From positions 1-39,782 of the forward strand of contig PUMA01000159.1 of assembly GCA_003551155.1 (NCBI GenBank): DNA of 39,782 nt, in the 5' to 3' direction. The notes under the pieces were generated by a model. That model was not told the origin of the DNA, did not search any database, and worked only from the letters and a program-made list of their open reading frames with translations. Made by a program: the position numbers and the translations under genes. This document shows positions 1 through 39,782 of this stretch, piece after piece (position 1 is the stretch's first letter; each line of letters starts with the position of its first letter). This DNA comes from Desulfonatronospira sp. (GTDB taxonomy: Bacteria > Desulfobacterota > Desulfovibrionia > Desulfovibrionales > Desulfonatronovibrionaceae).

Positions 1-95
1 AGATATCAGCCATTAGTCGGGGGCTTGCTCAGGAGTCGGCTGAAAAGGCTGGGAAGCTTATTTTATCTTAAGTGTTGCTTGACTTTGAAGGTTAA

Positions 96-187
96 ATTTC
101 CTCAACTTTTGCTGTGGATTAGTATAGCATTCTGGATCAATCTCTTTATTACGTGGATGTAAAATCCACACGTTGCGTCGAGGAGCC
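96..187 (+). mobile_element. MITE-like dispersed repeat, copy A
   Basis: Right end GGATGTAAAATCCACACGTTGCGTCGAGGAGCC is nearly identical to copy B (one 1-nt indel and one substitution over 34 nt). The left end shares TTTGCTGTGGA with B. Non-coding. Confidence 0.75.
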
Positions 188-25707: not shown

Positions 25708-26819
25708 AAGAATTGCTGGAACTGGACCGCGGGCAGGTGCAGGTCATGCTCAGGTCCATGGGAGAGCCGGCGTACCGGGCAGATCAACTGTGGCAGTGGG
25801 TCTGGAGCAAAGGAGCGCGGGATTTCCAGGAGATGACCAATATCTCCAAAGCCCTGCGGGCCAGAATGGAACAGGAGTTTTCTCTCGGGCGGCCCCGGAT
25901 TCGTGCGCTGCTGACCAGTGTGGATGGAACCGTCAAGTTTCTGCTGGAGCTGTCCGACCAGGAGCAGATAGAATCCGTACTCATTCCGGAAAAGGGCCAT
26001 TATACTCAATGTCTGTCCACCCAGGCGGGTTGTCCCATGGGCTGTATTTTCTGCAGCACCGGCCGCATGGGGTTCAGGCGCAATCTTTCTTCCGGCGAGA
26101 TTGCTGCCCAGATTCTTACAGCCAGGGACTACCTGCGGGAACAGGGAGCCGATCCGGCCCGGCTGAGAAATATTGTGCTCATGGGCATGGGCGAGCCCCT
26201 GCTCAATTGGGAGGCCGTGCGCAGGGGACTCCTGACGATTACCGACCCCCTGGGTCTTGGCTTTTCCAGGAGAAGAGCCACTCTTTCCACTGTGGGCATA
26301 AGGGGCAGGCTGCAGGAGTTCGGGCGGTCCAGACTGGCCATGCTTGCAGTTTCACTGCATGCTCCGGATCAGGATCTGCGCCGGAGCCTGATGCCCGGAG
26401 CTGCCGCCTGGGAAATAAGAGACCTTGTGGGGGCACTGGAAGAATATCCTCTGGATCCGAGAGAAAGAATAACTGTGGAGTACGTAATGTTCAGGGGCAT
26501 CAATGATTCGCCGGCCCAGGCCAGAGAACTGGTCCGTCTGCTTTCCAGGGTCAAGTGCAAGGTGAACCTGTTGGCCTGTAATCCGGTTGAGGACAGCAGT
26601 TTTCAGCCCCCGGGCCTGGAAAGGATTTCAGATTTTGAGCAGATTCTGCGTTCCAAGGGACTTACGGTTACCCTTCGCAGGAGCAGGGGACAGGATATAA
26701 TGGCCGCCTGCGGACAGCTTTATGTTGAGGTGAAACAGACCAGCCCAGGGGACCGTGGTGATATGCAACAGGTAAAAGATCATGGAAGGATGACAAATGG
26801 CAGTTTAAATAACTGTTGA
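25704..26819 (+). CDS. rlmN: 23S rRNA/tRNA (adenine-C2)-methyltransferase
   Basis: Radical SAM CPMGCIFC, GMGEPLLNW, C-terminal QDIMAACGQL. Best SD spacing points to ATA at 25704; the alternative is TTG 25713. Confidence 0.93.
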   Translation: MKELLELDRGQVQVMLRSMGEPAYRADQLWQWVWSKGARDFQEMTNISKALRARMEQEFSLGRPRIRALLTSVDGTVKFLLELSDQEQIESVLIPEKGHYTQCLSTQAGCPMGCIFCSTGRMGFRRNLSSGEIAAQILTARDYLREQGADPARLRNIVLMGMGEPLLNWEAVRRGLLTITDPLGLGFSRRRATLSTVGIRGRLQEFGRSRLAMLAVSLHAPDQDLRRSLMPGAAAWEIRDLVGALEEYPLDPRERITVEYVMFRGINDSPAQARELVRLLSRVKCKVNLLACNPVEDSSFQPPGLERISDFEQILRSKGLTVTLRRSRGQDIMAACGQLYVEVKQTSPGDRGDMQQVKDHGRMTNGSLNNC

Positions 26820-26844
26820 CATAGGGTGCCGTACTTATGATTTT
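26816..26844 (+). promoter_or_regulatory. Possible ancestral hisI promoter, abutting repeat copy B
   Basis: TTGACA - 17 nt - GATTTT. The -10-position hexamer lies at the end of the left target-site duplication. Confidence 0.3.
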
Positions 26845-26951
26845 GGCTCTTCGACGTTTGCTGTGGAATTATTATGGCCTTATACTGCATTGTGGATAAA
26901 GCTCATTATTTTTAGCTGGATGTAACAATCCACACGTTGCGTCGAGGAACC
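26845..26951 (+). mobile_element. MITE-like element, copy B (107 bp) with 8-bp target-site duplication
   Basis: Ends GGCTCTTCGACG... and ...CGTCGAGGAACC are imperfect TIRs. Flanked by ATGATTTT at 26837-26844 and 26952-26959. Confidence 0.85.
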
Positions 26952-26999
26952 ATGATTTTTCATCCTGTCTCTGAATTCCGGAGTTAAAGGGGTTCTGTT

Positions 27000-27374
27000 T
27001 TGAAGCCTGATTTTGCCAAAGGAAACGGGTTATTGCCGGTAATAGTCCAGGAATGGGGCACGGGCGAGGTGCTCATGCTGGCATATACTGATGAAGAGGC
27101 ATGGGAAAAGACCCTGCAGACGGGCGAGGCCCATTTTTACAGCCGCAGCCGCGGAACTATCTGGCATAAGGGCGGCACTTCAGGCCATGTGCAGAGGATC
27201 AGGGAAATCCGTTTAGACTGCGATCAGGACGCTATTTTGTTCATGGTAGACCTGGTGGGGGGAGCAGCCTGTCACAAGGGATACAGAAGCTGCTTTTTTA
27301 CCCGGCTTCGGGATGGAAAACCTGAAGTTTTTGCTGAAACTGTTTTTGACCCCAAGGAGGTTTACAGTAAATGA
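27000..27374 (+). CDS. hisI: Phosphoribosyl-AMP cyclohydrolase
   Basis: [48 protein letters not shown] start after AAAGGGG. Confidence 0.94.
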
Positions 27375-39691: not shown

Positions 39692-39782
39692 GGTTCCTCG
39701 ACGCGACGTGTAGATTTTATATACAGTTAAAAATCAAAAGCCTTATACAGAATGCCGGAGCTGGAAAAAAACAATGCAATGC
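39692..39782 (-). mobile_element. MITE-like dispersed repeat, copy C (truncated by window end)
   Basis: GGTTCCTCGACGCGACGTGTAGATT...CTAAAAAT-like core aligns with the reverse complement of copy B for about 65 nt. Confidence 0.7.

Follow-up and report, generated by a model that had tools for sequence, protein, structure and literature searches.

A probable ISL3-type MITE family in Desulfonatronospira, with a putatively internally deleted copy between rlmN and hisI

The non-coding segment between rlmN and hisI in the genome of this soda-lake Desulfonatronospira, named here copy B, is with a probability of about 0.9 a non-autonomous ISL3-type MITE, a member of a family amplified to around 90-100 copies, which would have been mobilised in trans by an ISL3 transposase with an 8-bp target duplication and would have lost its palindromic core by internal deletion. 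The window analysed, 39,782 nucleotides in length, is the entire contig C170 of a 2.01-Mb draft genome, which is distributed in 197 contigs and is 94.5% complete. The window shows the following features:

26837..26844, no strand: left target-site duplication ATGATTTT, read directly from the sequence; the 8-bp duplication is family-wide.
26845..26951, plus strand: MITE copy B, 107 bp, without ORF, most likely an internally deleted derivative.
26845..26870, plus strand: left terminal repeat GGCTCTTCGACGTTTGCTGTGGAATT, which matches the ISL3-type end GGTTCTTCGACGTTTGATGTGGAATT at 24/26 positions.
26876..26892, plus strand: putative scar left by loss of the palindromic core, GGCCTTATACT joined to GCATTG, versus GGCATTATACTATATCTTTCC...CGGAGCCGGCATTCTGG in the long copies.
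26926..26951, minus strand: right terminal repeat, GGTTCCTCGACGCAACGTGTGGATTG in inward reading, whose outer 12 bp match the ISL3-type end at 11/12 positions.
26952..26959, no strand: right target-site duplication ATGATTTT, read directly from the sequence.
about 94..187, plus strand: second window copy, diverged at its left end and intact at its right end.
39692..39782, minus strand: third copy in the window, cut by the contig end; it continues on contig C94 (L194), where it is flanked by CTGAACTAT repeats.

The rlmN stop codon ends at 26819 and hisI starts at 27000; copy B begins 25 bp past the former and its end is 48 bp from the latter, both distances counting the target duplication. The initial annotation had described a non-coding 107-bp segment with imperfect terminal inverted repeats inside a perfect 8-bp duplication, and direct reading of the sequence gives exactly this: the segment at 26845-26951 starts GGCTCTTCGACG and finishes CGTCGAGGAACC, its terminal repeats share 10/12 positions and both show TGTGGA at position 18 from the end, and ATGATTTT lies on either side without a mismatch. 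No ORF of 100 amino acids or more is contained in the 107 bp, and copy B is now probably inert.

The genome contains many related elements, as the initial annotation had anticipated. A BLAST-type search, in which 40 of 101 candidates were scored, shows at least 49 matches to the segment, and a pattern search allowing up to three mismatches finds 59 right ends and 70 left ends, against no match for the reversed-pattern control. Once nearby ends are merged, about 98 places remain outside the window contig, all of which were fetched. Since some of these places hold only one half of a copy that a contig end divides, and a few are divergent, the figure of roughly 90-100 copies is only an estimate; the density is about one copy per 20 kb. 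The end of the window contig and contig C94 overlap inside a MITE copy, with both the element and its right flank matching, and the two contigs are probably adjacent on the chromosome. Many contigs end within the palindromic core of the MITE, so that the family helps to explain where this genome assembly breaks. The same genome also has dozens of copies of another repeat, about 200 bp long and with AGTTTTCATCCGGAAAC...GTTTCCGGATGGAAACTA-type inverted ends (L087:4328-4542 and L268-L277); none of these copies was found within the window.

Outside this genome, the GTDB record carrying the MITE comes from the CSSed set and is a MAG of Desulfonatronospira, and a search of IMG/VR gave no match to the MITE. 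In one further genome (G006) every MITE copy lies on a single contig, C347, which makes the presence of the family in a second species uncertain. Two matches are filed under MAGs of Dehalococcoidia (L088) and Ignavibacteriales (L089). Horizontal transfer was considered and rejected, mis-binned contigs being the simpler explanation: L088 (PWRA01000153.1) is 100% identical to contig C24 of our genome over 865 bp and encodes one protein 99% identical to contig C14 of our genome, and L089 (PWJF01000219.1) does not differ from L087 in the part that was read. Both appear to be mis-binned Desulfonatronospira sequence.

The duplication at the insertion site belongs to the whole family. Among 40 copies with both ends, for which flank lengths of 4 to 12 were compared, the mean flank identity peaks at 8 bp (0.65), with 0.51 at 9 bp, 0.42 at 7 bp and 0.33-0.39 elsewhere. 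Perfect 8-bp repeats are found in 11 of the 40 copies and 7/8 matches in five more, and several of the remaining copies become perfect after a one-base shift of the element end (e.g., L157 and L225); mismatched pairs of left and right flanks, used as control, show perfect 8-bp agreement in 0.06%. The A+T content of the 16 best target sites is 80%, versus 47% for the window, and open frames of 100 codons or more span 35% of the insertion sites, versus 90% of random window sites. Insertions are mostly intergenic, and copy B would have entered an A+T-rich intergenic 8-mer whose duplication would have left the flanking ATGATTTT.

The element is absent upstream of hisI in the six congeners compared (6/6), so their spacers do not retain it as ancestral sequence, a point that the initial annotation had singled out. 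In the two closest congeners, G003 and G004, a short spacer separates hisI from an adjacent rlmN, and in G005 the spacer is occupied by a different palindromic repeat. Divergence of the congener spacers hides the exact unoccupied 8-mer, and a precise empty-site allele was not seen in them. With duplications across the family and congener spacers lacking the sequence, the proposal of non-autonomous transposition in place of a shared regulatory site is upheld. It is very improbable that the segment is instead a conserved structured RNA or a REP-like regulatory palindrome, with a functional hairpin and no history of transposition. It does fold as RNA better than its shuffles (z -2.8) and its copies are mostly intergenic, but this folding is a consequence of the terminal inverted repeats, an Rfam search of the segment gave no credible match (its one snoRNA hit, far under the threshold, is due to chance), and the clean 8-bp target duplications, the orthologous spacers without the element and the match to insertion-sequence ends all speak for transposition.

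The ends of copy B point to the ISL3 family. ISL3 transposase genes (PF01610) are present in 19 of the 61 genomes searched, and two full ISL3 elements were found in the same order, L064 (1341 bp) and L066 (1370 bp), both with GGTTCTTCGACG...GTGGAATT ends on both sides; single ends of the same kind are found in the same family at L071 and L073. The left end of copy B is identical to the ISL3-type end at 24 of 26 positions. Its right end is more diverged and shows 18/26, a value no higher than that of the best unrelated site of the window, and 11/12 in the outer 12 bp. Both ends start GG(C/T)TC(T/C)TCGACG. The assignment to ISL3, only tentative in the initial annotation, is thus strengthened by full elements with near-identical ends, and we infer that an ISL3-family DDE transposase, acting in trans, would bind the GG(C/T)TC(T/C)TCGACG...TGTGGA ends. 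An 8-bp duplication is by itself common to several IS families. Mobilisation by another of these (e.g., of the IS66, ISAs1 or IS4 types) would agree with this and with the lack of an intact ISL3 transposase in the genome itself, but it is improbable given the left end at 24/26 to ISL3 ends of the same order, the shared start of both ends, and the attribution to ISL3 of a MITE with the same ends in Microcystis (PMC11448079).

The full-length IS with matching ends sought since the initial annotation is thus present in the order, but our draft genome (94.5% complete, 197 contigs) shows no intact ISL3 transposase, which may be due to the incompleteness of the draft. Its only ISL3 match is a degenerate fragment on contig C42; a single matching end lies 1.3 kb from it. 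This fragment adjoins a broken transposase-like frame (L054:1700-2650), IS4-like by eye.

Copies with two ends range from 76 to 332 bp, and this adds one correction to the initial annotation: the MITE reading holds, but the 107 bp of copy B do not represent the native size of the family, many copies being longer. In many copies ATGGCATT is followed by ATACTATATCTTTCCAGCTCCGGGGTTTTG, an arm that runs into a long palindrome with the closing sequence ...CCCCGGAGCCGGCATTCTGGAT. Copy B reads GGCCTTATACTGCATTGTGGAT, with the first bases of the arm fused directly to the closing GCATT; for this reason it most likely once held the core, and would descend by internal deletion from a larger, core-bearing family. 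It is about 12 bp longer than the 95-bp short form, and copies of 106-128 bp show other partial core remnants. Long core-bearing copies with perfect 8-bp duplications also exist (e.g., L177, L150 and L193), so forms with the core have transposed, the core moving together with the ends.

The larger members carry a nested palindromic core that copy B would have lost, and this direction of change is our inference, since short and long copies are intermingled in the tree of the outer parts, which gives no order of core gain versus loss. The opposite order within the MITE reading, in which the 95-bp short form came first and one copy subsequently acquired the core, could well apply, with the odds somewhat against it. 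GGCATT stands on each side of the core, the pattern expected of an insertion duplication, and 95-96 bp copies are common and clean; however, GGCATT direct repeats around a palindrome equally allow precise deletion by slippage, and the partial remnants of the 106-128 bp copies look like decay in progress.

The core itself extends beyond the MITE. Used as query, it matches the long copies of this genome and repeats in four congeners, with 78-85% identity over about 57 bp; the version from a congener finds matches in 6/6 congeners and, in our genome, all of the matches listed lie inside the MITE. The core is part of a genus-wide repeat, older than the MITE family and surrounded by different outer arms in other species. 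Several congener core copies sit within CCTGAATCCGTGAA...TTCACGGATTCAGG-type arms. One congener element with CCTGAATCCGTGAA ends, L254, has AACTGAAT on both sides, which suggests that such arms may likewise be part of a mobile element that duplicates 8 bp. A further palindrome, TCCGGCACCTACTTTTAA..., is nested in the core on the contig of L033 and L087 and in a copy of our genome, L049. More speculatively, and rather doubtfully, the core could be a module moving between or into the centres of different mobile shells, the ISL3-type MITE here and the CCTGAATCCGTGAA-ended elements in other Desulfonatronospira, with further palindromes nested in it and exchangeable outer ends. Palindromes layered in this way form a natural series in which to study how bacterial MITEs gain and lose internal sequence.

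Among known systems, the closest in the same order are the ISL3 elements L064 and L066 (PF01610), which share the GGTTCTTCGACG...GTGGAATT ends and, in L066, an 8-bp duplication (ATATTACC). Unlike the MITE, they are 1.34-1.37 kb long and encode a DDE transposase, and comparison of the outermost 70 bp shows no obvious similarity past the terminal 26 bp. In Microcystis aeruginosa PCC 7806, a 187-nt MITE with GGCTCTTCG ends, 8-nt direct repeats and a stem-loop is attributed to ISL3-family transposases having the same ends (PMC11448079). The GGCTCTTCG-type ends, the 8-nt repeats, the stem-loop and the ISL3 attribution are common to both families, so the kind of element is already known; the Microcystis MITE differs in being cyanobacterial, in its length and in having its partner ISL3 elements within the same genome, and the accessible part of its description mentions no nested genus-wide palindrome (PMC11448079). 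The Chunjie MITE of Geobacter uraniireducens, according to a published summary, likewise has tens of copies, mostly intergenic and many of them partial, and is also variable in length with conserved ends and direct repeats (PMC10969869). It differs in size, at 178-235 bp (PMC10969869). The Desulfonatronospira elements form a new family of ISL3-type MITEs; the kind is known and the bacterial lineage is new for it, and a well-defined family of this type is now available from sulfate-reducing bacteria.
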